NCBI RefSeq assembly: GCF_014201195.1 | Contig: NZ_JACHDS010000001.1 | Span: 4,402,001-4,466,000, forward strand | Length of the DNA stretch: 64,000 bases | From: Nocardiopsis mwathae | Lineage (GTDB): Bacteria; Actinomycetota; Actinomycetes; Streptosporangiales; Streptosporangiaceae | Direction: 5' to 3' | Shown: piece after piece, positions 22,543-47,026 of the stretch | How the letters are laid out: each line of letters starts with the position of its first letter | Position numbering within the stretch: the first letter of the stretch is position 1 | The notes under the pieces: generated by a model | What the model saw: only the letters and a program-made list of their open reading frames with translations | Databases searched by the model: none | Told to the model about the DNA's origin: nothing | Translations under genes and position numbers: made by a program

Positions 22543-22578
22543 GTTCACTTCCCCTTTCGGCGTCCGGACGCTCCGGAC

Positions 22579-32676: not shown

Positions 32677-32708
32677 AGGTCGGGGCGGGATCTCCCCCGC
32701 CCCGACCT
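32677..32708. terminator. 13-bp hairpin after the ABC operon
   Basis: AGGTCGGGGCGGG (32677-32689) pairs perfectly with CCCGCCCCGACCT (32696-32708). It lies between the ABC operon and the convergent DUF397 gene, so it may work in both directions; A-rich sequence precedes it on the plus strand and so acts as a U-run for the minus strand. Confidence 0.75.
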
Positions 32709-32722
32709 CCATGACCGAATCG

Positions 32723-33055
32723 TCAGCGGCCGAGCCCGCCGGCCTTCACGATCTGGAGGAAGGCCGACCACTCACCAGCGCCAAAGGCCAGGTGCCCCAG
32801 ACCTCGATGCATCGAATCACGCACCGCCGTAGCGATGCCAAGATCTGCCACCTCAATGCAGTTGTTGCCAGTACCGCTGTGGCTGCTCTTGCGAAAGTGC
32901 GCCCGAACCTGCGCAACCTCAAGGCAGTTCTGCTGAGCCGTACTGTGGCTGCTCTTGCGGAAGTCGGGAGGAAGGTGAGCAACCTCGACGCAGGCGCCTC
33001 CTGCGTTGCTGTAGCTGGACTTACGCCATCCAGCCTCAGGCACTCGAAGCGTCAC
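32723..33055 (-). CDS. Triple DUF397 protein
   Basis: 110 residues made of three DUF397 units in a row: 'WRKSSYSNAGGACVEVAHL' (~10-28), 'FRKSSHSTAQQNCLEVAQV' (~32-50) and 'FRKSSHSGTGNNCIEVADL' (~54-72), then a tail 'TAVRDSMHRGLGHLAFGAGEWSAFLQIVKAGG' that looks like the usual DUF397 end. Single DUF397 proteins partner XRE/DUF5753 regulators in actinobacterial development; three units in one chain are unusual. GTG 33055 has GGAGG 10 nt upstream. It follows the XRE gene by 18 bp. Confidence 0.88.
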   Translation of the reverse strand: MTLRVPEAGWRKSSYSNAGGACVEVAHLPPDFRKSSHSTAQQNCLEVAQVRAHFRKSSHSGTGNNCIEVADLGIATAVRDSMHRGLGHLAFGAGEWSAFLQIVKAGGLGR

Positions 33056-33073
33056 GGTGCAGGCACCTCCACA

Positions 33074-33931
33074 TCATGCGAAGTCTCTCATCACGCGGGC
33101 GATGAAATCCTTGGACTTGACATCTGACAACGCAGATGATTGCAAATGGTCAAATACCAGATTATACCGGGCAACATCTTCCGCGGATTCGAGGTGCTGG
33201 CTACTCGTGAGGTCTTCGATGTAGACCACATCAGGATCCGACTGCTCGGGAAAGCTGAGGATCGCAAACGACGTCCCGAGGGAGGCGTGTCCTCCTTCCG
33301 CGAAGGGCAGTACCTGAACTGTGACTTCGCGGAGTTCCGACAGCTCCAAGATGTGTTCGAGCTGTTTGCCGAATGCCTGCCTACCTCCGACGGGGCGGTG
33401 CAGGACCGCCTCGTCAAGGATCGCCCACAGCCGCAGCGGAATCTCCCTGGTCAAGAGCTTTTGGCGCTCAAGCCGAGCCTGAACCTGCTCCTCGATGCGC
33501 TCAGGCGGCACTTCCGGGCGCGCTGCAAGCAGGACTCCCTTGGAGTACTCCTCCGTCTGCAGCAGTCCTGTTACCAGCTGGTTGTCATACCCAAAGACCG
33601 ACGCGGCCTCATTCTCCAAGCCCACATAGCGCTCAAACCAGGGTGGAATGGCGCCCTGCTCGAACGTCTGCCACCACCCCTTGAGCTTGGACTCTCGTGA
33701 GAGCGTGACGAGCGCCTCGGCCTCTTCATTGCTGGCCCCATAGATCTGGAGGAGCAGCCGGAGATCACGCGGCTTGATACTCCGGCGGCCGTTCTCGACG
33801 CGGCTCAGCCATGAAGCATCGCACTCTGCCGATTCAGCCACCTGGCTGAGCGTCATCCCTGCGTCTTTGCGCAGCCGCCGCATCTCCATGCCCAGCCGTC
33901 GACGCCGCGCAGTCGGGCTCGCTGCCGCCAT
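33074..33931 (-). CDS. XRE regulator with DUF5753 domain
   Basis: 285 residues: N-terminal HTH 'RRLGMEMRRLRKDAGMTLSQVAESAECDASWLSRVENGRRSIKPRDLRLLLQIY', then a DUF5753 ligand-like domain (GWWQTFEQGAIPPWFERYVGLENEAASVFGYDNQLVTGLLQTEEYSKGVL...LPFAEGGHASLGTSFAILSFPE...VVYIEDLTSSQHLE). These pairs, together with DUF397 proteins and small ATPases, regulate sporulation and antibiotics in streptomycetes. ATG 33931 lies about 8 nt after GGAGG; an ATG at 33949 is also in frame. An inverted repeat sits in the divergent promoter region. Confidence 0.92.
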   Translation of the reverse strand: MAAASPTARRRRLGMEMRRLRKDAGMTLSQVAESAECDASWLSRVENGRRSIKPRDLRLLLQIYGASNEEAEALVTLSRESKLKGWWQTFEQGAIPPWFERYVGLENEAASVFGYDNQLVTGLLQTEEYSKGVLLAARPEVPPERIEEQVQARLERQKLLTREIPLRLWAILDEAVLHRPVGGRQAFGKQLEHILELSELREVTVQVLPFAEGGHASLGTSFAILSFPEQSDPDVVYIEDLTSSQHLESAEDVARYNLVFDHLQSSALSDVKSKDFIARVMRDFA

Positions 33932-33976
33932 GCCTCTTGCCTCCGTCATGCCATCAGGGTACGTCGCTGACTTTCT

Positions 33977-34005
33977 TTGGCAAAATGTCTTTGACAACTT
34001 GCCAA
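33977..34005. promoter_or_regulatory. Inverted repeat and promoter between XRE and ATPase genes
   Basis: TTGGCAA (33977-33983) and TTGCCAA (33999-34005) form an inverted repeat with a 15-bp spacer, at lower GC than its surroundings. The right arm also serves as a possible -35 (TTGCCA, 33999-34004) with AATACT at 34022-34027 exactly 17 bp on, for the rightward ATPase gene. It is a plausible XRE binding site. Confidence 0.5.
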
Positions 34006-34076
34006 GCGTCCGAAGCTGTCCAATACTGACAGTGTGCCGACGCTCACACCACCTCGTCGGTGGAATGGAGAGATCC

Positions 34077-34541
34077 ATGCCAATCTCTGCCCAGCACAGC
34101 CCTCGGACCGACGTAACGACTCTCTTCCTCCCCGGCCTGCGGCTTGGTGAGGTCCGGACCGCCCGCGACTGTGTCGCCTGGGTCCTGTCCAGCGAGGATC
34201 CCGACACCCGATCGACTGCACAGCTACTGACCAGCGAACTCGCGTCCAACGCGCTCATCCACGGCGACGTCCGCAACGCCGCCTGCCCCAAGACCGGGCT
34301 GCTGGCCGAGCCGCGCCCGTTCTCCGTCACGGTGGACCTGCTCGCCCGGGAGATCAGCGTCCTTGTCTGCGGCCGGGGCGCACGCCGCGTAGCCCCGCGC
34401 CCCAAGCGCAACCGCGCCTGGAACGAAACCGGCCGAGGCCTGCTCTGGGTCGAAGCCCTCTCCGCCGCCTGGGGCACCTACGGCGACCACGTCTCCCGCA
34501 CCGTGTGGTTCACCCTCACCCGCGCGCCCGCCCTGGGCTGA
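34077..34541 (+). CDS. HATPase_c_2-type ATP-binding protein (anti-sigma-like)
   Basis: 154 residues: 'FLPGLRLGEVRTARDCVAWVLSSEDPDTRSTAQLLTSELASNALIHGDV' has the N-box E-L-x-S-N-A-x-x-H of RsbW-like GHKL kinases, then 'FSVTVDLLAREISVLVCGRGARR' and 'TGRGLLWVEALSAAWGTY' with the G-box. Stand-alone proteins like this act beside XRE/DUF397 pairs in actinobacteria as anti-sigma-type kinases. ATG 34077 is used because GGAGA lies 7 nt upstream. Divergent from the XRE gene; a terminator follows. Confidence 0.88.
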   Translation: MPISAQHSPRTDVTTLFLPGLRLGEVRTARDCVAWVLSSEDPDTRSTAQLLTSELASNALIHGDVRNAACPKTGLLAEPRPFSVTVDLLAREISVLVCGRGARRVAPRPKRNRAWNETGRGLLWVEALSAAWGTYGDHVSRTVWFTLTRAPALG

Positions 34542-34563
34542 CGCCACACACGACAAGACCGCC

Positions 34564-34588
34564 CCGGCCCTAAGGCAAGTAGGGCCGG
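34564..34588 (+). terminator. Terminator after the ATPase gene
   Basis: CCGGCCCTA (34564-34572) pairs perfectly with TAGGGCCGG (34580-34588) around a 7-nt loop, 22 nt after the stop. Confidence 0.65.
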
Positions 34589-34678
34589 AGCGGCCGCCAC
34601 AGAACCTACCCCACAGGCGCCGCCGCCCGCTTCCGGCAATGGAGGGGAAGAGCGGGCCCGGCCGGCGCCGCCCAAGAA

Positions 34679-34718
34679 GGGGTGCCCGCCCCGGAACGAG
34701 AGGCCGGGCGGGCACCCC
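34679..34718 (+). promoter_or_regulatory. 13-bp leader hairpin ahead of a small gene
   Basis: GGGGTGCCCGCCC (34679-34691) pairs perfectly with GGGCGGGCACCCC (34706-34718), 40 bp before the start of the 116-residue gene and after the previous terminator. It could be a leader structure or a second terminator; I cannot tell which. Confidence 0.4.
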
Positions 34719-34758
34719 GCCCACGAACAGCCACGAACACCCCCCAAGGAGCAACCCC

Positions 34759-35109
34759 ATGCGCACCCCACAGCAGCAGCGGCCCGCCCCACCCACGGCC
34801 AGGCCCACGCGCTCACGCCGCTACCGGCCCTACGCCTCGGCACCCCCACCGGCCACCAAGCCCGACCGCTCGCGCCTCCCCGGCCCCGGCCGCCACGCGC
34901 GGCAGCCCGTCCCCTCTCACCCGGCGCTCCAGGCCTGGTCCCGCAGACCGGAAAACCACCGCGCATACACCGCCTACAAGCACCGCACCCTCAACGAAAC
35001 CGCCGGCCAGACCCGCTCGCTCTTCACCATCTGCGAGCAACTCCCCTACTCCTGCGCCATCATCGGCGCCATGCTCCTGACCCACCTCCTAGGCCTCCTG
35101 GGGTGGTGA
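34759..35109 (+). CDS. Hypothetical basic protein with C-terminal membrane segment
   Basis: 116 residues. The first ~60 are basic and rich in P, R and A (RTPQQQRPAPPTARPTRSRRYRPY); the middle is 'HPALQAWSRRPENHRAYTAYKHRTLNETAGQTRSLFTICEQLPYS', and the end is a hydrophobic stretch (CAIIGAMLLTHLLGLLGW). ATG 34759 has AAGGAG 7 nt upstream. It shares no family I recognise. Its 3' end overlaps the convergent CYTH gene by 21 bp. Confidence 0.55.
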   Translation: MRTPQQQRPAPPTARPTRSRRYRPYASAPPPATKPDRSRLPGPGRHARQPVPSHPALQAWSRRPENHRAYTAYKHRTLNETAGQTRSLFTICEQLPYSCAIIGAMLLTHLLGLLGW

Positions 35110-35808
35110 CGCCAGCGGTTCCTCTGTTGATCTCGGCGAAGTGCACCGAATATCGGCGATCATTCGGTGCACTTCGCCGAGATCAACAGAGGGCTGGGAG
35201 GGGCGTCCCGTTGAAAGAAGATGAAGGCCAGCCGGCCAAGCTCGCACGGATCGGGCCATAGCGAGATCGCGGTAGGGAAGGTCGACGGCGGGAAACCCCG
35301 TGAGGCCAAGCCCGCGCTCGATCTCCTCCAAGAGTTCCCTCCCGTCCGCGGCCTCACTGCGCAGCACCTCCACCTCGGCGAAGATGCCGACGTTGTCGAC
35401 CACGTCGATTGCGACAGTGAGGCCGGGAGTGTGTGGGTGCCGGTAGAGGGTCCTCCGCTTGGCCACCGTGACCAGGTGAACCATGCCCAGCGCAGCAAGG
35501 AGCCGTCCGGCCGCGTCCGCCTGCCCGTCTCCCAGTGCCACGTTCGTCTCCCGCTTGGCGATCACATCGCCAGCGGAGTGTGTCACGGCCGTCGTCGGCG
35601 GTTCGTAGGTGACCTCAGCGGATGCTCCGTTGCGCCGGATCCTCAGGCACTCCACCGTCTCCATGAAGTCCACATCGGGACGGCTGTAGTAGTCGTCGGT
35701 CTCCACCACCGGCCCCGATGCGTGCCACCCGGCTTCGGACAAGTGCCGCCGCACGGATTCCTCAGCGGTTCCGATCTCCCGCTTTCGCTCGATCTCGACC
35801 AGGTCCAT
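35089..35808 (-). CDS. CYTH domain protein (class IV adenylate cyclase/thiamine-triphosphatase fold)
   Basis: 239 residues. The N-terminus 'MDLVEIERKREIG' has the E-x-E-x-K signature (E5, E7, K9) of the CYTH triphosphate tunnel fold, followed by 'DDYYSRPDVDF', 'CLRIRRNG', 'KRRTLYRH', 'LTVAIDVVDNVGIFAEVEVL' strands with the expected basic and acidic tunnel residues. CyaB-like members act on triphosphates; the substrate here is unknown. The domain ends near residue 200; residues ~206-229 are encoded by an intergenic-type palindrome, so the tail looks acquired. Six bp downstream of the 76-residue gene. Confidence 0.82.
   Translation of the reverse strand: MDLVEIERKREIGTAEESVRRHLSEAGWHASGPVVETDDYYSRPDVDFMETVECLRIRRNGASAEVTYEPPTTAVTHSAGDVIAKRETNVALGDGQADAAGRLLAALGMVHLVTVAKRRTLYRHPHTPGLTVAIDVVDNVGIFAEVEVLRSEAADGRELLEEIERGLGLTGFPAVDLPYRDLAMARSVRAWPAGLHLLSTGRPSQPSVDLGEVHRMIADIRCTSPRSTEEPLASPPQEA
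35121..35192. repeat. Long palindrome, GTTGATC family, copy 4 (31-bp perfect arms)
   Basis: Arms 35121-35151 and 35162-35192 are exact reverse complements, 31 bp each, with a 10-nt loop. The arm begins CCTCTGTTGATCTCGGCGAA and continues GTGCACCGAAT, sharing GTGCACCGA with copy 1. It lies at the 3' end of the CYTH reading frame, which reads straight through it. Confidence 0.9.
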
Positions 35809-35814
35809 CCCGCC

Positions 35815-36045
35815 TCAAATCCTGTCGCTGATCACCGAGTGCACCCTCGCTGTGTTCTGCTCGGTGCACACCTGCTGTACCGCCGCCATCGCCTCAGTCA
35901 ATGCTGCGGCGTCCGACAACGGAACGCTGCTGAACAGAACCATCTGCTTGGCGTCGAGTAGCGGGGCAGCGAGGCTCTTTCGCCCGTAACGGTTGTAGTA
36001 CCTGCGCTCCTCGGTGAGCACGTCATCAGAGGCGCGCGGCATCAT
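35815..36045 (-). CDS. Hypothetical 76-residue protein upstream of CYTH
   Basis: A small soluble protein, 'MMPRASDDVLTEERRYYNRYGRKSLAAPLLDAKQMVLFSSVPLSDAAALTEAMAAVQQVCTEQ...'. It contains one cysteine and no membrane segment or known motif. It ends 6 bp before the CYTH start on the same strand, which suggests co-translation. Two adjacent start codons are possible. Function not recognised. Confidence 0.5.
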   Translation of the reverse strand: MMPRASDDVLTEERRYYNRYGRKSLAAPLLDAKQMVLFSSVPLSDAAALTEAMAAVQQVCTEQNTARVHSVISDRI

Positions 36046-36089
36046 CGCCGGAGAGGCGGCGGGTGCGGTGAGAAACCGGCCTCGGAGGG

Positions 36090-36314
36090 TCAGGTCTGGG
36101 GGCCGGCGTAAATCCGATCGCTCGGCGGGGGGCGCCGGGCCGGGTTCTCCAGCTGCCGCACGAACGCGTCCACGTCATCCAGGTCCTCAACGATGGGCGC
36201 CAAGCCAGGGTCAGTGGGATCGGCAGACCAGTGGTATCGGCTCCGGTAGATCCGATACTGCCCGCCGTAGGTGGCACGCAGCCACTCCTCGACGGCGCCA
36301 TGATCGGTGGTCAC
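36090..36314 (-). CDS. Hypothetical 74-residue acidic protein
   Basis: 'VTTDHGAVEEWLRATYGGQYRIYRSRYHWSADPTDPGLAPIVEDLDDVDAFVRQLENPARRPPPSDRIYAGPQT'-type sequence, acidic in the middle with many aromatics at the start. GTG 36314 is used; a GTG at 36359 would add 15 residues of low-complexity sequence. No family recognised. It lies 44 bp upstream of the 76-residue gene on the same strand, so it may head the same small operon. Confidence 0.45.
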   Translation of the reverse strand: MTTDHGAVEEWLRATYGGQYRIYRSRYHWSADPTDPGLAPIVEDLDDVDAFVRQLENPARRPPPSDRIYAGPQT

Positions 36315-36581
36315 TGGCCCGCCCGCGGCGGCCGGGCGGCGTTGCGCTGGCCTTGGCACAGCACGTCCTGCACGTCGAACCGAGCGGCCGGGACCACGGC
36401 GTCGGGTGCTGTGACCTCTTGCGGGTAGCGCTCACGCCTCTCCTCAGAGAGGGTGTCGACGGAAGTACTTCGGCCATCCATGCCCTCAGGGATATCGTCG
36501 GGTCACCGATCACCGGCAGGGCGTGATCACACAGGCGTGTGGGACCGCTTTCACGCGGGGTGTGAATCGAGAGGCACCGAA

Positions 36582-37916
36582 ATGACCGAGCCAAATATTC
36601 TCCTGGCCGGCCTCATCGAGGAGGCAGGAATCTCCAACGCAGGGCTCGCTTCCCGGGTGAACCGCGTGCTCAGAACACGTTACGACCACACCGCCGTCGC
36701 CCGCTGGATCCGGGACCATGCCACTCCACGCGGCCGGGCACCGCAAGTCATCTGCGATGTCCTGACCCAACGGCTCGGCAGGACGATCACCATGAGCGAC
36801 ATAGGGATGGGCCGCGGCGCCGCGTCCGGGAACGCCAGCGACCTCGGCGCCGTCGCCACCCGGACCGCAGCCATGTGGCGCCGAGACGCCCGCCACGAGT
36901 CCTTCCTGAAGGACGCCCGGCCCGTGGGCGGAGCGGCGGTGATCATGCCGCTGTTCGAATGGGAGAACCCTCCCGGCGACCTCGACGTATCGGGCTCCGG
37001 CCGAACTTCCATTGGCATCCGGGACGTCAACCGCCTCCACACAGCCCGCCACCGCTACGAGGAGATGTACCGCCGCGCGGGCGGTATTCCGGTCCGACCT
37101 CGGCTGGCGCGCTTCCTGGCGGAGCAGGTCACACCGATGCTGTCGGCCTCCTTCTCCGACGCAACCGGGCGGCGCCTCTACCGCACCGTCGGGTCTCTCA
37201 CGGCGCTCGCAGGCATTTGCGCCTATGACGCGCCCCGTCAAGCGCTGGCGCAACGCTACTTCCTGTCCGCCCTGCGGATGGCCAAGGCCTCGGCGGACCG
37301 CCGCTTCGGCGCCTACGTCGTTGCGCTGCTCGCGAACCAAGCCATGGCCGCTGCGGAGTACCGGCTGGTCATCCAGTACTGCGAGACGGCTCTGCGTGCG
37401 GCAGGGCCCGACCTCACTCCGGCGCTGGTCTCCGACCTGTGCACCATGCAGGCCCGTGCCTATGCGCGACTCGGCGACCAGCGCTCCTGCCACGCCCAGA
37501 TGGCGCGATCGGAGTCCATGTCCGGGCGGATCCGCATAGAGGAGGAACCCGAGGAGACCTCGTATGTCCAGCCTGGTCTGGTCGAGACGCAGCACTCCGA
37601 GGCGCTGCGGCAGCTCGGCGACCTTGGCGCGGCCGAGGAATACGCGGATGAGGCGGTGCGCACTGGCGGCCAGGCGCACCTTCGCGGCCAGGTGCACCGG
37701 TATGCCGGGCTCGCGGTAATCAGGGCGCAGCGCGGCCGGGTGCACGAGGCGGTGGAGCCGGCCAGGGAAATGCTGGCACGGGTGCGTGGGATGGAGTCGG
37801 ACAGGTTGCAAGACCGGGTGCACCAGGTGCGCCGGGCGATTGCCGGTCGCAGTCGTGATCCGGAGGTACGCGAGTTCGCTGAGCAGGCCGATGAGGAACT
37901 TCGGCTGGGATTGTGA
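36582..37916 (+). CDS. Actinobacterial HTH-TPR transcriptional regulator
   Basis: 444 residues. The N-terminal ~75 form an HTH-like helical domain ('LLAGLIEEAGISNAGLASRVNRVLRTRYDHTAVARWIRDHATPRGRAPQVICDVLTQRLGRTI'); the rest is helical and TPR-like, with 'YRTVGSLTALAGICAYDAPRQALAQRYFLSALRMAKASADRRFGAYVVALLANQAM' as the signature seen in streptomycete regulators. Function is regulatory by family; targets unknown. ATG 36582 has GAGAGG 8 nt upstream. The NUDIX gene begins 41 bp downstream on the same strand, a pairing also common in relatives. Confidence 0.85.
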   Translation: MTEPNILLAGLIEEAGISNAGLASRVNRVLRTRYDHTAVARWIRDHATPRGRAPQVICDVLTQRLGRTITMSDIGMGRGAASGNASDLGAVATRTAAMWRRDARHESFLKDARPVGGAAVIMPLFEWENPPGDLDVSGSGRTSIGIRDVNRLHTARHRYEEMYRRAGGIPVRPRLARFLAEQVTPMLSASFSDATGRRLYRTVGSLTALAGICAYDAPRQALAQRYFLSALRMAKASADRRFGAYVVALLANQAMAAAEYRLVIQYCETALRAAGPDLTPALVSDLCTMQARAYARLGDQRSCHAQMARSESMSGRIRIEEEPEETSYVQPGLVETQHSEALRQLGDLGAAEEYADEAVRTGGQAHLRGQVHRYAGLAVIRAQRGRVHEAVEPAREMLARVRGMESDRLQDRVHQVRRAIAGRSRDPEVREFAEQADEELRLGL

Positions 37917-37957
37917 TGTCCTGGGACGCGACACCGCCGTCTCCGGGGAGCTGCCGC

Positions 37958-38488
37958 ATGCGCTGGACTGTCCACTCCGAGCAGCCGCTGTACACCGACC
38001 GGTGGCTGGACATCCGCCTTGCCGACGTGGAGATCACCGGCGGTCGGCACCTGGAGCATCGGCTGATCCGCACCGACCCCGGGGCGGGCGCCGTCGTCAT
38101 GAACGACCGCGACGAGGTCCTGTTGGAGTGGCGGCATCGGTTCATTCCGGACACGTGGGGCTACGAGATCCCGATCGGCGGCGTCCACCCCGGTGAGCAC
38201 CCGGCCGCCGCGGCGGCCCGGGAGGTCGAGGAAGAAACCGGGTGGCGGCCCGGTCCGCTACGGCCCCTCATCTACACGCAGCCGACCCCCGGCATCAGCG
38301 ACAGCGAGCACCACATCTTCTTCGCTGACACCGCCGAGCACGTCGGCGACCCGGCCGAGGACTGGGAAGCCGAGCGCATCGAGTGGGTACCGCTCCCCCA
38401 CATACCGAAGCTAGTCACCGAACGCAAAATCGTGTCGGGAACCACGCTGACCGCCCTGCTGTATGTGTATGGGACAGGACGCCCGTAG
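37958..38488 (+). CDS. NUDIX hydrolase paired with TPR regulator
   Basis: 176 residues with the Nudix box 'GGVHPGEHPAAAAAREVEEETGW' and flanking 'LIRTDPGAGAVVMNDRDEVLLEWRHRFIPDTWGYEIP', an ADP-ribose-pyrophosphatase-like arrangement. ATG 37958 follows GGGGAG by 7 nt; starts at 37913/37916 would overlap the upstream stop but add unlikely sequence. It probably cleaves a nucleoside diphosphate derivative; whether that product is sensed by the regulator beside it is speculation. Confidence 0.85.
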   Translation: MRWTVHSEQPLYTDRWLDIRLADVEITGGRHLEHRLIRTDPGAGAVVMNDRDEVLLEWRHRFIPDTWGYEIPIGGVHPGEHPAAAAAREVEEETGWRPGPLRPLIYTQPTPGISDSEHHIFFADTAEHVGDPAEDWEAERIEWVPLPHIPKLVTERKIVSGTTLTALLYVYGTGRP

Positions 38489-38516
38489 TGGCGTGCCGTT
38501 GAGACCAACGACCTCG

Positions 38517-38545
38517 GTAGGCCCCGCGCAGGCAGGGATGCAGGG
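38517..38545 (+). repeat. Solitary CRISPR-repeat-like sequence
   Basis: 29 nt beginning GTAGGCCCCGCGCAGGCAGG, matching the first 17 bases and most of the rest of the array repeats at 41889-42096. No second copy occurs at a 61-nt spacing on either side. It may be an orphan of the array 3.4 kb away, since the two share the same type I-E-like sequence and orientation. Confidence 0.65.
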
Positions 38546-38582
38546 GGCACACGCGAACTCGGGATTTCTGGGATCAAGGGCT

Positions 38583-38885
38583 ATGGGCACAGTCACCATG
38601 GAGCAGCTCCGAAGTCGCCTCGCGCAGGTGATCGGGCGGGTGATGGACGGCGGTACGTCAGCAGCCGTGACCCGGGATGGGACGGTCGCCGCTGTACTCA
38701 TCTCGCCGGGCGGCTACGAGGACCTCAGGCGCCTGCGTGATGAGCGCGATCGCAGAGTTGTGCTCGAACGTCGCGCCGCGGCTCAGGCCCACCCCAGTCG
38801 CATGGTCGCGTTCGACTCCGCGAGAAGATATCGCCCTACATTCCCCCAGATCACGAGGGGAAGCCAGCGCCCCACCTCGTTGTAG
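38583..38885 (+). CDS. Phd/YefM-like antitoxin, no toxin beside it
   Basis: 100 residues; 'MGTVTMEQLRSRLAQVIGRVMDGGTSAAVTRDGTVAAVLISPGGYEDLRRLRDERDRRVVLER' is the Phd/YefM DNA-binding and dimer domain. Normally a toxin (Doc, YoeB or similar) is encoded directly downstream; here the next gene is on the other strand and unrelated. Its 3' third overlaps the end of the convergent XRE gene by 103 bp, an abnormal overlap. The region just upstream holds a CRISPR-like repeat. Confidence 0.75.
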   Translation: MGTVTMEQLRSRLAQVIGRVMDGGTSAAVTRDGTVAAVLISPGGYEDLRRLRDERDRRVVLERRAAAQAHPSRMVAFDSARRYRPTFPQITRGSQRPTSL

Positions 38886-39262
38886 CGGGTGGCCTGGTAA
38901 GCCGCATAGGTGTGGTCAGCCTCGGCGCGCAGGCGGGCGACGTCGATGGGATGCTCGCCGCGGGATTCCTCGACGATGGTTTCCAGGCTGGTGTAGCGCA
39001 TCATGGCGCGCTCGATCTCGCGTGCTGCCGTGTAGCGCACCTCGCTGTCTGGGGCCTCGGTGCCGGTCAGGTCCGTGATGTCCAGACGGAGAACGTGGGC
39101 CATGCGGGTGAGGACGCTGTGGGCATCAATGTCGCGCTTGCCGCGCTCGACCTGGGACAGCCAGGATTCAGAGCGTCCGACGAGCCCGGCAAGCGCAGCT
39201 TGGGAGAGGCCGCGGCGGCGCCGGGCGCGGCGGATGATCTGGCCTCGCATGGCTGCGTCCAC
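38783..39262 (-). CDS. XRE regulator, apparently truncated at the C-terminus
   Basis: 159 residues. HTH 'MRGQIIRRARRRRGLSQAALAGLVGRSESWLSQVERGKRDIDAHSVLTRMAHVLRLDITDLTG', then the start of the linker 'ARLRAEADHTYAAYQATRYNEVGRWLPLVI' that precedes a ~250-residue TPR domain in typical homologues. The TPR part is missing; the last ~20 residues are read from the antisense of the Phd gene. GTG 39262 has GAGGAGG 7 nt upstream, so it is expressed normally at its start. It is 15 bp downstream of the flavoprotein gene. Confidence 0.8.
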   Translation of the reverse strand: MDAAMRGQIIRRARRRRGLSQAALAGLVGRSESWLSQVERGKRDIDAHSVLTRMAHVLRLDITDLTGTEAPDSEVRYTAAREIERAMMRYTSLETIVEESRGEHPIDVARLRAEADHTYAAYQATRYNEVGRWLPLVIWGNVGRYLLAESNATMRLGWA

Positions 39263-39277
39263 GTTCGGCCTCCTCGC

Positions 39278-39802
39278 CTAGTGGGAGGTGGCCACGGAGC
39301 GGAGGGTGGTGACGACCTCGGCCCACGTGGGCATACGGGCCTCGTAGGGGGCGTGAGGGTCGTGCAGCACCGTGACGGCTGGCATGGACCGCAGCACGTC
39401 AAGAGAGCGCTGAAAGGCCGGGTGGTCGGCGAGTTGGGGTTTGCACTGCGGCACGACGACGGTGGGGACGCGGTAGCCGACCATCTCGCACAGCAGCCCG
39501 ATAGCGAAGTTGTCGGCATGGCCGTTGGCGAACTTGTTGGTCGAGTTGAAGGTGAGCGGGCAGGCGAGGACCGCATCCGCAGGCGGCAGCGGCTTTCCGG
39601 TCCCCGGCATCCGGTACTCAACGCGCACCCGCTCCCTGGTGAGCTCCGCGAGCTGGTCCGGATCGTGGAACCGCACCCCGGTCGGAGTCGACAGCACCAT
39701 GATTCGCCAACCATCGGCCTGGAGGACCTTGACCAACTCAGGCACGCCTTCGGGGGCAGGAGCACCTGAGACCACAAGGCAGAGCGTCGACGCCGTCACC
39801 AT
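39278..39802 (-). CDS. Flavoprotein of the HFCD/PPC-decarboxylase fold
   Basis: 174 residues: 'LCLVVSGAPAPEGVPELVKVLQADGWRIMVLSTPTGVRFHD' opens a Rossmann-like flavoprotein fold, and 'ADAVLACPLTFNSTNKFANGHADNFAIGLLCEMVGYRVPTVVVPQCKPQLADHPAFQRSLDVL' has the P-x-T-x-N-x-x-x-K...A-x-G-x-x-D motif of phosphopantothenoylcysteine decarboxylase relatives. Such stand-alone actinobacterial proteins are often beside XRE-TPR regulators, as here. Function unknown; oxidative decarboxylation is possible by family. Confidence 0.82.
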   Translation of the reverse strand: MVTASTLCLVVSGAPAPEGVPELVKVLQADGWRIMVLSTPTGVRFHDPDQLAELTRERVRVEYRMPGTGKPLPPADAVLACPLTFNSTNKFANGHADNFAIGLLCEMVGYRVPTVVVPQCKPQLADHPAFQRSLDVLRSMPAVTVLHDPHAPYEARMPTWAEVVTTLRSVATSH

Positions 39803-39881
39803 GAGGGCAGTGTAGAAGCGGGCATCGGGGGTGCAGGGCCATGCCTGTCACGAAGCGACCCCCCGTCAGCTGCACCGTCGG

Positions 39882-40190
39882 TCAGCGGTTGCCGTGCCAG
39901 ATGAACCGCCCAGTGAAAGCTCCGCGCTCGTCGGCCTTGGCCTGGCGCACCCTCTCCACGCCGTCCGCGCCGCGACCGTGAACCGCCGCCAAAGCGTGGA
40001 CGACCTCCATAATGTCGGCCAGCTCCTCGACCGCTTGCGGCCCGTCGGCCTCCAGGTACTCGGCGACCTCCTCTTCGAGCTTGCGGCGTAGTTCGCGGAC
40101 GTACTCCTCGTGCGCTGCCACGGTGATCACTGGCTCGGCACTATCGGCCCGAATGATGCCGGGGATACGGTCGCGCACCAGCTTCGGCAT
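39882..40190 (-). CDS. MazG-like nucleoside triphosphate pyrophosphohydrolase
   Basis: 102 residues: 'MPKLVRDRIPGIIRADSAEPVITVAAHEEYVRELRRKLEEEVAEYLEADGPQAVEELADIMEVVHALAAVHG' carries the E-x-x-E...E-x-x-D all-alpha NTP-pyrophosphatase motif of the phosphoribosyl-ATP-pyrophosphohydrolase-like/house-cleaning family. It likely hydrolyses non-canonical dNTPs. Start ATG 40190. A short gap separates it from the flavoprotein gene downstream. Confidence 0.88.
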   Translation of the reverse strand: MPKLVRDRIPGIIRADSAEPVITVAAHEEYVRELRRKLEEEVAEYLEADGPQAVEELADIMEVVHALAAVHGRGADGVERVRQAKADERGAFTGRFIWHGNR

Positions 40191-40330
40191 GGGTCACTCC
40201 CAGCTCAGACCGAGTCCGGACTCCTTCCGGACCTCCCATGTCGCCAGGACGATACCTAGTGCCAGCTACCGCCGCAGGGCCTCTCAACGAATCGGACTCA
40301 CCCCGATCAACCTGGGAGGCTTGCTCGGGT

Positions 40331-40346
40331 GTTGCATAAATGCAAC
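40331..40346. promoter_or_regulatory. Palindromic operator ahead of the antitoxin gene
   Basis: GTTGCATAAATGCAAC is a perfect 16-bp palindrome (7-bp arms, AA centre) 51 bp before the XRE-type antitoxin start, in a locally AT-rich patch. TTGCAT inside it could serve as a -35. It fits autorepression by the antitoxin. Confidence 0.6.
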
Positions 40347-40396
40347 GGTCGTGCTGGAATGATAGGGCCCCACCAGGAAGGATGAGGTCGATCGTC

Positions 40397-40759
40397 ATGC
40401 ACAGCGCCTTCTGGGACGACCACAAGCGCGACCTGAGCGACCCTGAGTACGCCCGTGAGTTCGCCGCCGAGTCCGCCCGCGTGCGCACCATTGACACGAT
40501 CATCAACGCCATCGACGACGCGCGCGTGGCCGCAGGGATGAGCAAAGCCGAGCTCGCCCGCGCGATCGGCTCCGATGCCGCTGTGGTGCGCCGCCTTCTG
40601 TCGTCGTCCAAGGCGAATCCGACGCTCGGCACACTCGCCGAGGTGGCCGCCGCTCTCGGCATGAAGGTCGTCCTGGAGCCCATGACACCTGAAGAGCGAG
40701 AAGCCGTCACCAAGCCGATGACCCAAGGCGGGAAGTCCCAGCAAGTCATCTCGGCTTGA
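40397..40759 (+). CDS. HigA-like XRE antitoxin
   Basis: 120 residues. Conserved start 'MHSAFWDDHKRDLSDPEYAREFAAESARVRTIDTIINAIDDARVAAGMSKAELARAIGSDAAVVRRLLSSSKANPTLGTLAEVAAALGMKV': a helical N-terminus followed by an XRE HTH, the organisation of antitoxins paired with Gp49-like toxins. ATG 40397 follows GAGG. The candidate toxin gene ends only 32 bp downstream but on the opposite strand, so the pair is convergent instead of an operon. Confidence 0.8.
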   Translation: MHSAFWDDHKRDLSDPEYAREFAAESARVRTIDTIINAIDDARVAAGMSKAELARAIGSDAAVVRRLLSSSKANPTLGTLAEVAAALGMKVVLEPMTPEEREAVTKPMTQGGKSQQVISA

Positions 40760-40791
40760 GGAGTAGCCCACTGCCCGCCAGCCGCGTCCGC

Positions 40792-41286
40792 TCACCCGAT
40801 GGGACGCGGCTGTTGGCTGAAGTAGTCCTTCCCGAGCAGGAGTACGGCCGCGTAGTCGGAGTCCGGCAAGGTCGTACGAAATGCCTTCGTGCGCCCGTCC
40901 ACGAGCACGAGCAACGGCTTGTCGACCCCCTTGGCTTCGTAGTCGAGCAGGCAGAACACCCGATAGTGCGTACGATTCGGCGGGCCGTCTACGCGAATCT
41001 CGAACCACCCTGTCATGGATCCGCGCATGGCCTCCCAGTAGCCGCCGCCCGCAAAGCGCATTGGCGGAGCTTGAGCTACCGCAATCGCGGCACTACGGAT
41101 GCGAGCACGGATCGTCGCCGGTACTGAGTTCAAGTACTCCTGAGCGGGCATCGTTCCGTCTGGCGCGCGATAGAACACGATGTCGTGCTCATCGGTAGGC
41201 TGCGGGCCGGTACGGATCGCGGTCCTCTTATTCCGCCCCCTGCGCTTGGATGTCACGGGCCATACCGTAGCGACCTTCGTCATCAT
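40792..41286 (-). CDS. Gp49-like (RelE/HigB) toxin family protein
   Basis: 164 residues. The C-terminal ~125 match the phage-derived Gp49-like (DUF891) fold: 'DIVFYRAPDGTMPAQEYLNSVPATIRARIRSAAIAVAQAPPMRFAGGGYWEAMRGSMTGWFEIRVDGPPNRTHYRVFCLLDYEAKGVDKPLLVLVDGRTKAFRTTLPDSDY'. Toxins of this group are mRNA-cleaving. An extra basic N-terminal ~35 residues is unusual. ATG 41286 with AGGA upstream is chosen; GTG 41301 is possible. Faces the XRE antitoxin. Confidence 0.78.
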   Translation of the reverse strand: MMTKVATVWPVTSKRRGRNKRTAIRTGPQPTDEHDIVFYRAPDGTMPAQEYLNSVPATIRARIRSAAIAVAQAPPMRFAGGGYWEAMRGSMTGWFEIRVDGPPNRTHYRVFCLLDYEAKGVDKPLLVLVDGRTKAFRTTLPDSDYAAVLLLGKDYFSQQPRPIG

Positions 41287-41301
41287 CCTCGCATTCCTCA
41301 C

Positions 41302-41888
41302 TGCTCCCGTGAGGCCGAAGCACCTTTTTCGGGCACGGTGAATTCTCGATCAGACGATCCGATGTTCTGCCGAACAAGGGGCCGACGGCCAATGGGGCAG
41401 GGAAGGCGCGATCCAGGGATTCGATCCCCCGGCGTTCGGGGACGCTGGGGTGTCGGGCGCCCTGATTTGTCGCATAGAACCGCCCGAAAACACGGGATTC
41501 CGCTTTGCGTGAGGGGGATTCCGAAACACGGAAGGAATCGGCAGCCCTCAACCACATTTCGCCGATGACCATGGGGGCGCATCTGATCATGCCCGTTTCG
41601 CCCTAAGAATTCCCATGGTCATTGCACAGGAGGGTTCCGGGCCGCGCCTTTCCGCCACAAGGGAGTGCTCCACCTTGCGGACAACAGCGGCGCCCCACCC
41701 CCTTCCACCCTCGCCGCCGCTTCTCCAGCAGAGCAGCGGCCAGCCACCCGCGGACAAAGCCGCCATCACGCTACTCAGCAAAGGACCCAGCGCCCCGCAA
41801 CCCGCACTATGGTGAACACAGCCGCAGTGCAGCCACCGAGGCCATGTCACAGGAAAATAACGCCCCGCATCGTCCCAGGTCACGAACT
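41302..41888. other. 587-bp intergenic region with CRISPR leader side
   Basis: No convincing gene; frames here have no family features. It contains an 11-bp inverted repeat ATGACCATGGG (41565-41575) with CCCATGGTCAT (41612-41622). The final ~70 bases before the first CRISPR repeat (for example AGGAAAATAACG near 41851) are the best candidate for the array leader, because the repeats are most regular at this end. Confidence 0.5.
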
Positions 41889-42096
41889 GTAAGCCCCGCG
41901 CAGGCGGGGATGGACCGCTCCGGCGAGCTTCGGCCCTGGTCAAGAACCAGTAAGCCCCGCGCGGGGATGGACCGAGCGCGATGACCTCGTCGGCGTCGGC
42001 TTCCAGGTAGGCCCCGCGCAGGCGGGGATGGACCGCCCACCCCGCTGGATGACGACGATTTCGCGCGGTAGGCCCCGCGCAGGTGGGGGTGGGCGG
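41889..42096 (+). CRISPR. Orphan type I-E-like CRISPR array: 4 repeats, 3 spacers
   Basis: Repeats at 41889-41917, 41950-41974, 42007-42035 and 42068-42096; three spacers of exactly 32 nt (41918-41949, 41975-42006, 42036-42067). The 29-nt repeat begins GTAAGCCCCGCGCAGGCGGG or GTAGGCC... and contains the CCCCGCG...CGGGG hairpin of type I-E repeats. Repeat 2 has lost the 4 bases CAGG; repeat 4 is degenerate in its second half, which marks the trailer end. No cas gene lies in the window. A further degenerate repeat follows at the same period. Confidence 0.9.
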
Positions 42097-42104
42097 ATCC
42101 GTGT

Positions 42105-43622
42105 TTACGAGGCGGAGATGGTGCCGCGGTAAGGCCCGCGCGTGTGGGTGGTCATCGCTTCTCCCAGGGCGTCGGCGAAGGAGAGGACGGTGGCTTCTGC
42201 CGCTGGGGTGGCCGGGTAGCGGGAGCGGAGGAACAGGCCCTCGTGGGTGCGGGAGATCCAGAACTGGGCGTCGTCGGCGACGGTGACGGCGCTGAGGTGG
42301 TGGGCGTTGGCCGGGGCGAAGTCGTCGGAGCCCGGGAAGCGGCGGTAGTCAACGAACGAGAGCATGAAGACGTCGTCGCGGGTGCGGGTGAACTCGTCGC
42401 CCAGGGCCGCCAGGACGTGGGCGACCGGGCGGCGGGCCAGGTCGAGGGCAGTGCGGAAGCCTGTTCTGGCGGCGTGGAGGCGGGTGGTGAACGCGGAGAG
42501 GGCCGCCGACTCGGCCGATTCCTCCCCTTCTGGCGCATCCGCGGATTCCAGCGCTTCCTCCGATTCCGCTGGTCGGCCGGGGCCGCTGCCCCCCGTGATG
42601 TCGAGGGTGAGTGGGGCGACCGTGGTGAACCAGCCGATGGCGTTGGTCCACCGCTCCTCGTGGCGGGTGTGCAGGGGTACGCACAGGCGGAGTTCGTCGC
42701 CTGGGCCGAGGCGGTGGGCGGCCTCGCCCACGGTGGCCAGGACGCCGGAGAACAGGCTGCCGCCCGCGTCCCGGCATGCCCGTTCGAAGGCGTCGGCGGC
42801 CCGGTCGTCCAGGAGGCGGCGGGTGTCGGTGCCCTGGGGGTGGCGTTCCCCCGGGGCCAGGCCCAGGTCGAGGGGGAACGACGGGGTGGTGCCGCCGCAC
42901 GCGGCGAAGAAGTCGGCCCAGCGGCGGATGAGTGGGTCGTCGCGTGTGGGTGGGGACGCCACGACCTCCTGTTCCAGGGCGCAGAAGTCCACGTAGCTGC
43001 CGACCGCGGGCAGGTCGGGCTCGCTTCCGGCGGCGACGGCGCGGTAGCACGCGCCCAGCTCGCGGACGGCGATGGCCAGGGAGTAGGCGTCCACGTTGCA
43101 GTGGTCGAACCCGCAGAACACGGTGGCGCTGCCGGGTCGGAGGACGACCGCGAACAGGTAGGAGGGCCAGGAGAGGGCGCGGCACGCCTCGTCGAGTCGC
43201 TTGGCGACATAAGCGCGGAGGGCGTCCGTTGTGGTGTAGTCGCCTACTTCCCGGGGTTCCAGGTCGAAGGCCTCTGCGGGGAGGACGAAGCGCTCGATCG
43301 CCTCCCCGTCCGGCGCCGGGCGGAAGCCGCTGCGCAGGGTTTCATGGCGGCGGACCCAGTGGACGAAGGCCTGCCTCAGGGCTTCCGGGCAGATGGCACG
43401 GCTCGATCCGAGGTCGCCCTCGAAGTCGAACGCGCAGGCCAGCCAGTGGCGCGGCCCGTCGTGCTGGCGGCGCTCCGTCTCCAGGTGGAACCGCTGGTTG
43501 AGCGAGGGCGGCACCGGGGAGGCGGGCGTGCCGTCGGCGGCGGTGAGCGTCGCCGCCGACGGCACGAACTCGATGACCCGGCCGGGCGCCGGGTCGTAGC
43601 GGTCCAGCGTGGTGACCCGCAC
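42105..43622 (-). CDS. Stand-alone condensation-domain (PapA-like) acyltransferase 1
   Basis: 505 residues. The catalytic motif H-H-x-x-x-D-G of condensation domains reads D-H-C-N-V-D-A (near 175-181): the catalytic second histidine and the aspartate are kept, the terminal glycine is alanine. 'GSYVDFCALEQE', 'LRLCVPLHTRHEERWTNAIGWFTTVAP' and 'FMLSFVDYRRFPG...FWISRTHEGLFLRSRYP' match the PapA-type acyltransferases of mycobacterial lipid synthesis. No carrier domain is attached. GTG 43622 lies 2 bp after the upstream stop. The last ~17 residues (TTHTRGPYRGTISAS) come from CRISPR-derived sequence. Confidence 0.85.
   Translation of the reverse strand: MRVTTLDRYDPAPGRVIEFVPSAATLTAADGTPASPVPPSLNQRFHLETERRQHDGPRHWLACAFDFEGDLGSSRAICPEALRQAFVHWVRRHETLRSGFRPAPDGEAIERFVLPAEAFDLEPREVGDYTTTDALRAYVAKRLDEACRALSWPSYLFAVVLRPGSATVFCGFDHCNVDAYSLAIAVRELGACYRAVAAGSEPDLPAVGSYVDFCALEQEVVASPPTRDDPLIRRWADFFAACGGTTPSFPLDLGLAPGERHPQGTDTRRLLDDRAADAFERACRDAGGSLFSGVLATVGEAAHRLGPGDELRLCVPLHTRHEERWTNAIGWFTTVAPLTLDITGGSGPGRPAESEEALESADAPEGEESAESAALSAFTTRLHAARTGFRTALDLARRPVAHVLAALGDEFTRTRDDVFMLSFVDYRRFPGSDDFAPANAHHLSAVTVADDAQFWISRTHEGLFLRSRYPATPAAEATVLSFADALGEAMTTHTRGPYRGTISAS
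42129..42157 (+). repeat. Degenerate fifth CRISPR repeat inside a coding region
   Basis: 29 nt placed exactly 32 nt after repeat 4, so the 61-nt period holds. It matches the consensus at 18 of 29 positions by eye, 11 of the first 13. It lies within the 3' end of the condensation-domain gene on the opposite strand, where its reverse complement encodes M-T-T-H-T-R-G-P-Y-R. Confidence 0.55.
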
Positions 43623-43624
43623 GT

Positions 43625-45055
43625 CTACTCCGCCGGGTCGCCCGCTGCCGCTGCCGCCACCCGCTCGCCGAGCGGGTAGTCGCCGTTCTGCGCGATCTCC
43701 CGGAACACGTGGCGCAGGCGCTCCAGGAAGATCGGGATGTTCTTGCGGGCCTTCTCGGTGTCCGGGTACTTGGTGTTGAGGAAGGTGCGGTCCCAGCCCC
43801 GGTTCAGCCACATGGACACCTCCCGGGTCTCCCCGGGCCCGGCCAGCACGTGCAGGTTGGCGCCCGGCCAGTCCGCTGACGCCGGGGCGTGGCGGATGTC
43901 GAGGTAGGACACCATCGGCGGGGCCGCTCCGGGGACGGACTGGGCGGTGAGCTCCGGGTAGAGCTCGGTGACGCGGGGCATTGGGACCCCGATCATGGAG
44001 CGGGCCGTCTCGAAGGCGCGCTGCGCCTCCGCGATCACCTCGGTGAAGCTCTTGAGCCCGGCGACCTGGAAGGTGATCGGTACGACGTTGACGAACCACC
44101 CCTGGGCGCCGAACCAGCGCGCCTCGTCGCGGGTCTGCATGACGGTGAGGCCGCGGTAGGCCTCGGTGCCGTTCAGTTCGAGCCCGCAGATGCCGAGCGC
44201 GGCGAACATCCCGGCGGTGAACCCGCCCCCGCCCGCCTTGCACACCTGGGAGAACACGTCCGCCTCGACCGGGGTGAACACGTCCTCCTCGATGAAGATC
44301 GCGGGGTAGGTCTCGCCCGGCTCGGTGCCGAGGTCCAGTGGGACCGTCCGGTCGCCCCCGCCCTGCCAGAAGTCCACCCAGCGGTCGACACCCGGCGTCT
44401 CCGGCCCGATGTGCGCCAGCCGCTCCCGTTCCACCCCGCAGTAGTCGACGTACGAGCCGACGCTGGGCAGCCCGTGGTCGACCCCCTCCAGTTCGGCCTC
44501 ATAGAGGGCGCGGAGCTCGGCGAACACCAGCATCAGCGACACCCCGTCGCAGTGGGCGTGGTCGACCGCGTAGACGATGGTGGAGGTGGTCTCGCGGACG
44601 ATCGCGGTCATCGCGAACGGCGGCCACTGCATCGGGTTGACCGAGGTGTCCAGGCGGTTGCGCACATGGGCGCGGATCGCGGCGGGCTCCTCGACCACGC
44701 CCTGGGACACCGGGCGGATCGCCAGCTTGTCCGGGGGCATGGCGTAGCGCTTCAGCCCGCTGTCGTCCGCGGCGAACCAGGTCAGCAGCGTGGGGTGGCG
44801 GCGCGCCCACGTCTCCAGGGCGGCGGCCATGGCGTCGGTGTCCAGGCGGCCGGGCAGGTCGAAGGCGATGCACACCCACGGCGTGGTCGGGCGCTCCGCG
44901 GCCTGGTTGGCCAGCCACAGGCGGGTGTGGTGCTGCTGGATCCAGGACGGCGGTTCGGGGTGCTCGCTCCACCCGGTTCCGGCGGTGTCCTGTACCTCGA
45001 ACTCGACCAGCTCACCGGGCTCGGGGCTGTACTCGACGATCTTCGTCATCAGCAT
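43625..45055 (-). CDS. Stand-alone condensation-domain (PapA-like) acyltransferase 2
   Basis: 476 residues. Catalytic motif D-H-A-H-C-D-G (near 164-170) is complete apart from the usual D for the first H. Other family blocks: 'PTTPWVCIAFDLPGRLDTDAMAAALETWARRHPTLLTWF', 'GSYVDYCGVERERL', 'LTVMQTRDEARWFGAQGWFVNVVPI', 'MVSYLDIRHAP' and 'VSMWLNRGWDRTFLNTKYPDTEKARKN'. These catalyse acyl transfer from a carrier or CoA to an alcohol or amine; donor and acceptor are unknown. ATG 45055 overlaps the previous stop and has GGAGG 7 nt upstream; ATG 45049 (TGATG) is the alternative. Confidence 0.87.
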   Translation of the reverse strand: MLMTKIVEYSPEPGELVEFEVQDTAGTGWSEHPEPPSWIQQHHTRLWLANQAAERPTTPWVCIAFDLPGRLDTDAMAAALETWARRHPTLLTWFAADDSGLKRYAMPPDKLAIRPVSQGVVEEPAAIRAHVRNRLDTSVNPMQWPPFAMTAIVRETTSTIVYAVDHAHCDGVSLMLVFAELRALYEAELEGVDHGLPSVGSYVDYCGVERERLAHIGPETPGVDRWVDFWQGGGDRTVPLDLGTEPGETYPAIFIEEDVFTPVEADVFSQVCKAGGGGFTAGMFAALGICGLELNGTEAYRGLTVMQTRDEARWFGAQGWFVNVVPITFQVAGLKSFTEVIAEAQRAFETARSMIGVPMPRVTELYPELTAQSVPGAAPPMVSYLDIRHAPASADWPGANLHVLAGPGETREVSMWLNRGWDRTFLNTKYPDTEKARKNIPIFLERLRHVFREIAQNGDYPLGERVAAAAAGDPAE

Positions 45056-46548
45056 GATGCGGCCTCCATGTCGGCGGTCACCGGGTGGGCTCCGGCGGCG
45101 GGTTGCGGGGATGCGGTGAGCTCCCCGCCGTCGGCGACGCGTTTCATCTGCGCCGCCGCGTTGTCGATGTAGAGTCGTGCGGCCGTGGCGCGGTTACCGA
45201 CGGCCGGGTAGCGGAAGCTGACCCGCGTGCCGTCGAACCCGCGGTTGATCCACAGGTAGACCTCGTGCGGGTGGTGGCTGCGGCTGCGCAGGGTGTGCAT
45301 CCGCCACTCCTTCCAGTAGCGCGCGCCGGGCGTCAGCCGCATGTCGACGTAGGACACGACGAACCGCGGCTCCAGCTCGGCGCCGAGCAGTTCGACCACC
45401 CGGGCGAAGGGGACCTCCGACAGCGGCTTGGCCGCCTTGACCGCGTCCGCGGCGCCCGTGAGCACCTTCGGGAAGGTGTCGGGTCCTGCGACGGGGAAGT
45501 GGACCGGTGCCAGGCCCACGTACCAGCCGAGCGAGCGCGCCCACTTGGGGTGGTTGCGGGTGTGGAAGATGGTCAGTGCCCGGAACTCGTCCTGGCCGAG
45601 GCTTTCCCGCCCGGCGAGGCCCAGGCAGGTGAGGATCCCGGCCAGCGGCGACCCCCCGCTCTTGCGGCAGGCGGCGTCGAAGGCCGTGGCCTGCTCCGCG
45701 TCGAGGATGAGTTCGTCCCCGCTGAGCTGCGGCGCCGTCATGTCGTCGTACAGGGCCGGGTCGTCGTAGTCCGCGTAGTCCTCGTACCCGCCCTCGACCC
45801 CGCCCTCGACCAGCCGGGCCGCCGGGAACTCGGGCAGCTTCCACCCGTTGGCCGCGAGGAAGTCCCGCCACCGGGTGACGGCCTCGTGGTCGGAGTCGAC
45901 CTCGGCGGCGGCCGACCGCTCGATGTGCGAGAAGTCCAGGTAGCTGCCGACGTCCGTGGGGTCGGGCCGGGAGCCCACCACGGCGGCCGCGTACAGCCAG
46001 CGGATCTCCTGGGCGATCAGGAGGATCGAGTAGCCGTCGACGTTGGAGTGGTCGAAGCCGAGGCACACGGTGGTGGAGCCGGCCCGCGAGATCGTGGCGC
46101 AGGCGTAGGCCGGCCAGGCCAGCGGGTCGGTCTCCCGGTCGAAGAAGGACTCGAGCCGCTCGGTCAGCTGGGCGGTGTCGGTGTAGTCGCCGACGGGTGT
46201 CCCGCACAGTTCGACCTCGCCCTTGGCGAGCGTGACGCGGGTGATGCGGTCCCCGTCGACGCGCAGCCCGCTGCGCAGCGTCTCATGCTGGTCGATCCAG
46301 GTGAGAAGGGCGGTGCGGAACGCCTCCGGGTCGAGGCGGCCCGGCAGGTCGAAGACGGTGGCGAGCCAGGACGGCGACGCGCGGCCCCGGCTGACGCCGG
46401 CCAGGCGGCCGCGCACGTGGGCTTCCTGAACGTAGGAGGGCGGCCGTTCGTCGGTCCTCCATCGGCTCCCGTCCGGCCCACCCCAGGGCCGCCACTCGGT
46501 CAGCGCGCCCGGTTCGACGTCGATATCAGAAATCTCGGTGAACTTCAT
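45049..46548 (-). CDS. Stand-alone condensation-domain (PapA-like) acyltransferase 3, first in operon
   Basis: 499 residues with D-H-S-N-V-D-G (near 164-170) as the active site, 'GSYLDFSHIERS', 'LTIFHTRNHPKWARSLGWYVGLAPVHF', 'FVVSYVDMRLTPGARYW' and 'VYLWINRGFDGTRVSFRYPAVGNRATA'. An acidic insertion (GGVEGGYEDYADYDDPALYDD) sits in the middle. It starts the three-gene operon; ATG 46548 follows GGGGG, and an ATG at 46566 is also possible. The long AT-richer region before it should hold the promoter. Confidence 0.86.
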   Translation of the reverse strand: MKFTEISDIDVEPGALTEWRPWGGPDGSRWRTDERPPSYVQEAHVRGRLAGVSRGRASPSWLATVFDLPGRLDPEAFRTALLTWIDQHETLRSGLRVDGDRITRVTLAKGEVELCGTPVGDYTDTAQLTERLESFFDRETDPLAWPAYACATISRAGSTTVCLGFDHSNVDGYSILLIAQEIRWLYAAAVVGSRPDPTDVGSYLDFSHIERSAAAEVDSDHEAVTRWRDFLAANGWKLPEFPAARLVEGGVEGGYEDYADYDDPALYDDMTAPQLSGDELILDAEQATAFDAACRKSGGSPLAGILTCLGLAGRESLGQDEFRALTIFHTRNHPKWARSLGWYVGLAPVHFPVAGPDTFPKVLTGAADAVKAAKPLSEVPFARVVELLGAELEPRFVVSYVDMRLTPGARYWKEWRMHTLRSRSHHPHEVYLWINRGFDGTRVSFRYPAVGNRATAARLYIDNAAAQMKRVADGGELTASPQPAAGAHPVTADMEAASC

Positions 46549-46949
46549 TTGGCCCCCGGTTGCCATGCAGGAACGATAGCAAAGAAACCCAAAAGAAAAA
46601 CCAATGGAATGGCATCCACCGAAGGAAGACGTCGCGGTCCGATACCGCACGTCGGCCTACATCGACAACCGTCGACATAGCCGCATGAGGAGGACATCGC
46701 CCGAGGTCAGGGGACTTGCGAGACATCAGATCCACGGGAATTCACGCCGCCGCAATACGTCGTTAACGCGACGGATGCTCATTCACGTGGATCAAATAAG
46801 ACCCACATCGTTGGGGGCACCTTCGGACAGCGATATCCGGAAAAAGACCTTTTTCGGGTGACGCTGCCCGCCCGATGTTAGTAGGAGATAAGTCGGATTT
46901 CATCCTTTTCTCAGAGTTGCCCGCGTCACACGCTTGCGAACACGCGAAA
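46549..46949. other. AT-richer intergenic region upstream of the acyltransferase operon
   Basis: About 400 bp, visibly richer in A/T than its surroundings, with A-runs around 46578-46602 and a frame at 46604-46861 that lacks any coding or family signs. I read it as the promoter region of the PapA-like operon and spacer to the groEL terminator. No clear operator stands out. Confidence 0.45.
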
Positions 46950-46976
46950 GGGCGGCCCCCGCAAGGGGGACCGCCC
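46950..46976 (-). terminator. groEL terminator hairpin
   Basis: GGGCGGCCCCC (46950-46960) pairs with GGGGGACCGCCC (46965-46976) with one bulged A and a GCAA loop, 50 bp after the groEL stop; TTTCGCG follows on the minus strand. Confidence 0.7.
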
Positions 46977-47026
46977 GATCGTCGCAGGCTGGTGACGCGT
47001 ACCTGGACGCCAGAACCCGTGGGTCC

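Follow-up and report, generated by a model that had tools for sequence, protein, structure and literature searches.

Three PapA-like genes conserved in fixed order across actinobacteria: a candidate operon for the serial acylation of one small molecule

The PapA enzymes characterised so far belong mainly to the synthesis of mycobacterial envelope lipids. PapA2 (PDB 6aef) is the trehalose-2-sulfate acyltransferase of M. tuberculosis and works in the sulfolipid pathway; its catalytic residue is His166, Ser384 and Thr324 lie near the docked trehalose-2-sulfate, and a zinc site reported for the enzyme is described as a peculiarity of PapA2 (PMC6996325). The mycobacterial acyltrehaloses involve sets of PapA, Chp and MmpL proteins, which in the polyacyltrehalose system are PapA3, Chp2 and MmpL10, with one PapA3 adding two acyl chains alongside Pks3/4 (PMC4183827). 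In Rhodococcus sp. I2R, contig 9 carries four consecutive papA genes, homologues of TlsA, that have been proposed to act in trehalolipid synthesis, and TlsA-like papA genes are linked to succinoyl trehalose lipids in Rhodococcus (PMC8396431). SgcC5 (PDB 4znm), a stand-alone condensation enzyme of the NRPS type, belongs to the same superfamily. The trehangelin protein ThgK, considered as a possible PapA relative, is treated in the literature as an enzyme of the angelyl-CoA pathway and was set aside.

The window analysed here, a stretch of 64,000 nucleotides from Nocardiopsis mwathae, contains three adjacent reverse-strand genes in the transcription order C-B-A: gene C (45049-46548, 499 aa), gene B (43625-45055, 476 aa) and gene A (42105-43622, 505 aa, with a GTG start). 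Genes C and B overlap by 7 bp, and a gap of 2 bp separates B from A. Each product is a stand-alone protein with a single Condensation domain (PF00668), which is its sole Pfam match (66.8-67.9 bits, cut-off 30.6); at E-values up to 1 Condensation still appears alone, with no match to the wax ester synthase/DGAT families. The three proteins share about one third of their residues in pairwise comparison, and all begin with a PxPGxxxE(F/W) stretch. The same-strand gene upstream of the trio is groEL2 in both species of the genus, and the operon promoter probably lies in the 478-bp gap between groEL2 and C (46549-47026). The operon itself contains no RNA-family match or tRNA, and an Rfam scan of the window from 33 to 48 kb is empty.

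The best match of A, B and C among PDB sequences is in each case PapA2 (E = 1.6e-30, 3.9e-41 and 6.8e-36, respectively), scoring 110-144 bits where no condensation domain exceeds about 50, and a joint profile of the three aligns with PapA2 over its full length (E = 6.2e-71). Structures were predicted for A and B, and C is compared with PapA2 by sequence only. The AlphaFold models of B and A (pLDDT 92.5 and 92.6) align to PapA2 in VIA-align with Z-scores of 43.7 and 40.5, compared with 31.0 and 28.7 for the next best structures, and in Foldseek with E-values of 1.4e-39 and 3.1e-39, compared with 3e-23 and 3e-22. PapA2 is also the sole structural match aligned from residue 1, so that the PxPGxxxE stretch is covered; nearly all others align from residue 25 or later. 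PapA5 is absent from the structure-search matches. SgcC5 shares the stand-alone state of the trio proteins, but its Z-scores reach only 28.4 and 25.8 for B and A, and its sequence match is much weaker. By sequence the three proteins are thus members of the PapA-type family, and the predicted fold of A and B is closest to that of PapA2, although identity to the latter is about 25%.

The catalytic motif reads DHSNVDG in C (46033-46053), DHAHCDG in B (44543-44563, with His166) and DHCNVDA in A (43086-43106), all on the reverse strand. The D, H and D of D-H-x3-D are invariant in 44 relatives, and the His and the second Asp are common to PapA2, whose own motif is A-H-x3-D-P as opposed to D-H-x3-D-G/A in the trio. 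The DA ending of A recurs in other members of its lineage, and PapA2 ends in DP, so we read the variant from these comparisons as no sign of inactivity. The first His of the HHxxxDG motif of NRPS condensation domains, of the SgcC5 type among them, is replaced by Asp in every trio protein. The residues near trehalose-2-sulfate in PapA2, whose positions rest on docking, are conserved only in part in the trio: reading the alignments by eye gives Ser384 in A, B and C and Thr324 in A only.

In a tree of 86 proteins (IQ-TREE), the genes of each trio separate into lineages of their own, to which we refer as A, B and C. The trees identify the three genes as old duplicates representing three ancient lineages. 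Lineage A is recognizable by the signature DDVFMLS.DYR...T.ADDAQFW.SRT. In both trees that we built, PapA2 groups together with its mycobacteria-like relatives on the lineage B side, with support of 97/95 for the four-row group holding PapA2 in the 86-protein tree and SH-aLRT of 100 for the 24-row lineage B set in the second; the PapA2 branch is long, which makes its precise position within B less certain. Among the tree members, which include PapA2 but no named PapA1, PapA3, PapA4, PapA5 or TlsA sequences, lineages A and C have no characterised enzyme. A preliminary description of this DNA had presented the trio as coupled genes for PapA-like stand-alone condensation enzymes of 476-505 residues, separated by a 2-bp gap and a 7-bp overlap, with D-H-x-x-x-D-(G/A) active sites and a similar short N-terminal P-G stretch, that arose by duplication. 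Its coordinates, strand and lengths prove exact, and the family, motif and tree results agree with it on these points.

The trio is conserved as a unit. The other genome of the genus (G001) has all three genes in the same order and place, at 76-83% identity, and dN/dS between it and the window is 0.27-0.28 for each gene, which denotes purifying selection (NG86, which is only approximate for DNA this rich in G+C). Scanning 84,980 species genomes and samples from whole-genome sets revealed additional trios in C-B-A order in Marinitenerispora sediminis (L005), four Amycolatopsis species, Streptomyces physcomitrii, two genomes of one further family (G542 and G409, family f4) and one of another (G323, family f26), bringing the order to eleven loci in at least five actinobacterial families. 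Pairwise identities of A, B and C over the 11 loci correlate with one another (r of 0.90, 0.94 and 0.96), with a contribution from genome relatedness. All three window genes are nearer to those of Amycolatopsis anabasis than to those of Marinitenerispora, a member of the same family as the window, so the whole cassette was probably transferred horizontally in one piece. Pseudonocardia, Amycolatopsis bartoniae and several Streptomyces have C-B pairs that lack A, suggesting from gene content that A is a later, optional last step; single relatives are common. A clear A gene is present in only three of about 396 phylum-wide genomes. The enzymes themselves are related to a known family; a partial literature search turned up no account of the fixed, PKS-free C-B-A set that recurs across families. 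Outside of actinobacteria, the only match is a single lineage C PapA-like gene in Pectobacterium betavasculorum (L012:7626-9251, 35% identity), which was probably acquired by horizontal transfer.

One genus (g137) stands out in this distribution, with an A gene in 32 of its 37 species and, for most of them, further family members listed directly beside it. In G542 the three genes, 32-40% identical to those of the window, are followed about 1.5 kb on by a fourth, an extra C. Gene lengths and gaps in this layout fit the four papA genes of Rhodococcus sp. I2R (PMC8396431), so the genus is probably Rhodococcus; the window differs in having no fourth gene, and the function of the Rhodococcus cluster is itself only proposed.

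The surroundings of the trio contain no assembly line. Adenylation, carrier and ketosynthase domains are absent from the Pfam-scanned window proteins, which represent part of its ORFs; polyketide synthases and fatty acyl-AMP ligases are absent from the scanned genes around the trio, and none were noticed at related trio loci. The nearest other Condensation match in the genome is about 0.59 Mb off. The preliminary description had reported neither assembly-line nor transporter genes around the trio in the window, and the first part of this claim holds for the scanned proteins. The part about transporters does not, as the window contains a coupled ABC exporter pair (28998-32656, forward strand), which adjoins the trio directly in G001, and a xanthine/uracil-type permease (6492-7979). 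The ABC pair finds no support as a dedicated exporter of the trio product: a relative lies elsewhere in Marinitenerispora (61% identity) and occurs also in G013, where the trio has no match.

No MmpL gene lies beside the window trio, and the MMPL matches of the genome, at 0.86 and 1.67 Mb, are far off. The genome's own MmpL was considered as a partner, but nothing connects it with the trio; an MmpL beside a single PapA-like gene in G054 matches it at 69% identity. MmpL genes do adjoin the trio in three Amycolatopsis loci (L001, L003 and L008, from A. anabasis, A. marina and A. arida), and since the A. anabasis proteins are only about 30% identical to those of the other two, the sequences look like the outcome of two separate associations. 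The A. anabasis run continues from C-B-A into an alpha/beta hydrolase with N-terminal membrane segments and then MmpL. The hydrolase matches BD-FAE/Abhydrolase_3 and may be no more than a positional counterpart of Chp. With its presumed cytosolic PapA-type acylation, hydrolase and MmpL, the run recalls the PapA3/Chp2/MmpL10 set (PMC4183827). The window trio departs from that set in its three PapA lineages and in the lack of an adjoining PKS, MmpL or hydrolase gene, and no ligase gene is found beside it either. Glycosyltransferases lie close to the trio in Marinitenerispora (GT4) and in G542 (GT1-like). The profile of the Stf0 sulfotransferase (PF09037), expected of the sulfolipid branch, has no match in the genome and is silent in the control genomes as well.

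Taken together, these observations make it reasonably probable, in our judgement, that the trio is a dedicated operon of three PapA-type O-acyltransferases that serially acylate one small acceptor, yielding a multiply acylated product that would then be exported. This product is most plausibly a glycolipid, and trehalose is the likeliest core. Speaking against this reading are the missing MmpL, hydrolase, ligase and PKS neighbours of the window trio and the only partial conservation of the residues near docked trehalose-2-sulfate. C, B and A would be transcribed together in that order. Each enzyme would adopt the two-lobed condensation-domain fold, in which the His of D-H-x3-D would deprotonate a hydroxyl of the acceptor for attack on an acyl thioester. 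The donor is most likely acyl-CoA, given that no carrier protein or synthase lies nearby. Three conserved and divergent enzymes evolving in step in one operon would fit three successive acylations of a shared acceptor, in which the enzymes probably differ in the position they acylate or in the acyl chain they add. The serial acylation suggested in the preliminary description is plausible for a trio that is conserved and diverges as a unit. The same description had taken the presence of otsA and otsB within 15 kb as pointing to trehalose, an argument that falls. The block of groEL2, a ThiS-like gene, thrC and otsA, mostly with otsB nearby, is the same in five genomes of other genera that have no trio at that place (G007, G008, G009, G011 and G013); in Marinitenerispora the trio and the block are on different contigs, and neither otsA nor otsB is found at the other trio loci examined. 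We therefore reject the proximity as evidence for trehalose and attribute it to conserved chromosomal backbone. Trehalose would still be the single likeliest acceptor, with a probability approaching one half, on account of the homology to PapA2 and the role in trehalolipid synthesis that has been proposed for the Rhodococcus cluster.

The most serious alternative retains serial acylation and replaces the acceptor with another glycoside, glucosylglycerate, a glycosylated lipid or a polyol. The backbone origin of the otsA/otsB linkage leaves room for it, as do the glycosyltransferases flanking two of the trios and the lack of a characterised enzyme in lineages A and C; we nevertheless consider it possible rather than probable, as the only solved close relative acts on trehalose-2-sulfate and the TlsA-like genes are tied to succinoyl trehalose lipids (PMC8396431). 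Considerably less credible is a role as condensation-type enzymes that serve a distant NRPS in trans and join carrier-bound substrates. All three proteins have the Condensation domain and NRPS-type genes do occur in the genome, at about 0.7, 1.8, 2.3 and 5.0 Mb, but these are at least 0.59 Mb away, sequence and fold are much nearer to PapA2 than to any C domain, and Asp stands in place of the first His of HHxxxDG throughout.

The genes might also be co-transcribed and serve separate pathways. The C-B pairs and the common single relatives agree with such independence, yet we regard it as very unlikely in view of the fixed order over at least five families, the tight spacing and the strongly correlated divergence, all of which point to one pathway. 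Decay or silence of the genes is the least probable explanation: no evidence for either was found in the trio, and both species of the genus keep the genes and their catalytic residues intact, at a dN/dS of about 0.27. The serial acylation of one acceptor, most plausibly trehalose, remains the reading that we prefer.

That three lineages free of PKS genes are kept in fixed order by distantly related actinobacteria suggests a general acylation pathway of greater age, of which one mycobacterial branch may be an offshoot. More tentatively, and with considerable doubt, C-B-A could represent an ancient mobile three-step cassette that makes a triacylated, trehalose-like glycolipid without a PKS, in which case the mycobacterial PapA2 group would derive from a B member that PKS genes joined later. 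The trio offers a harmless and genetically tractable place to learn the function of PapA-type enzymes and the nature of their lipid product.

Several other features of the region and genome deserve mention. Four repeats of 28-30 nt resembling type I-E CRISPR repeats (GGTCCATCCCCGCCTGCGCGGGG) occupy window positions 41889-42097 with start-to-start distances of 57-61 nt. They begin right after the stop codon of A, whose 3' end overlaps a fifth, degenerate copy in the same register; none are expected by chance. In G001, a perfect inverted repeat, GGTCCGTCCCCGC..GCGGGGACGGACC, follows A (L033, about 14775-14810) and resembles the window repeats; this could be either a terminator or an isolated repeat. 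The segment from about 32700 to 42000 is missing between the trio and the ABC pair in G001 and was apparently either inserted in the window's species or deleted from G001; it contains HTH, NUDIX, Phd-like antitoxin, flavoprotein and CYTH genes as well as a tRNA-Arg. A further stand-alone condensation protein (435 aa; L085:6328-7635; G000:C1 near 5886496) is encoded by the terminal gene of a small cluster that also has an aminotransferase-like gene, beside rpsL/rpsG. Finally, the window encodes a protein of the peptidyl-arginine deiminase (PAD_porph) family at 21376-22548, the start of which resembles a secretion signal.
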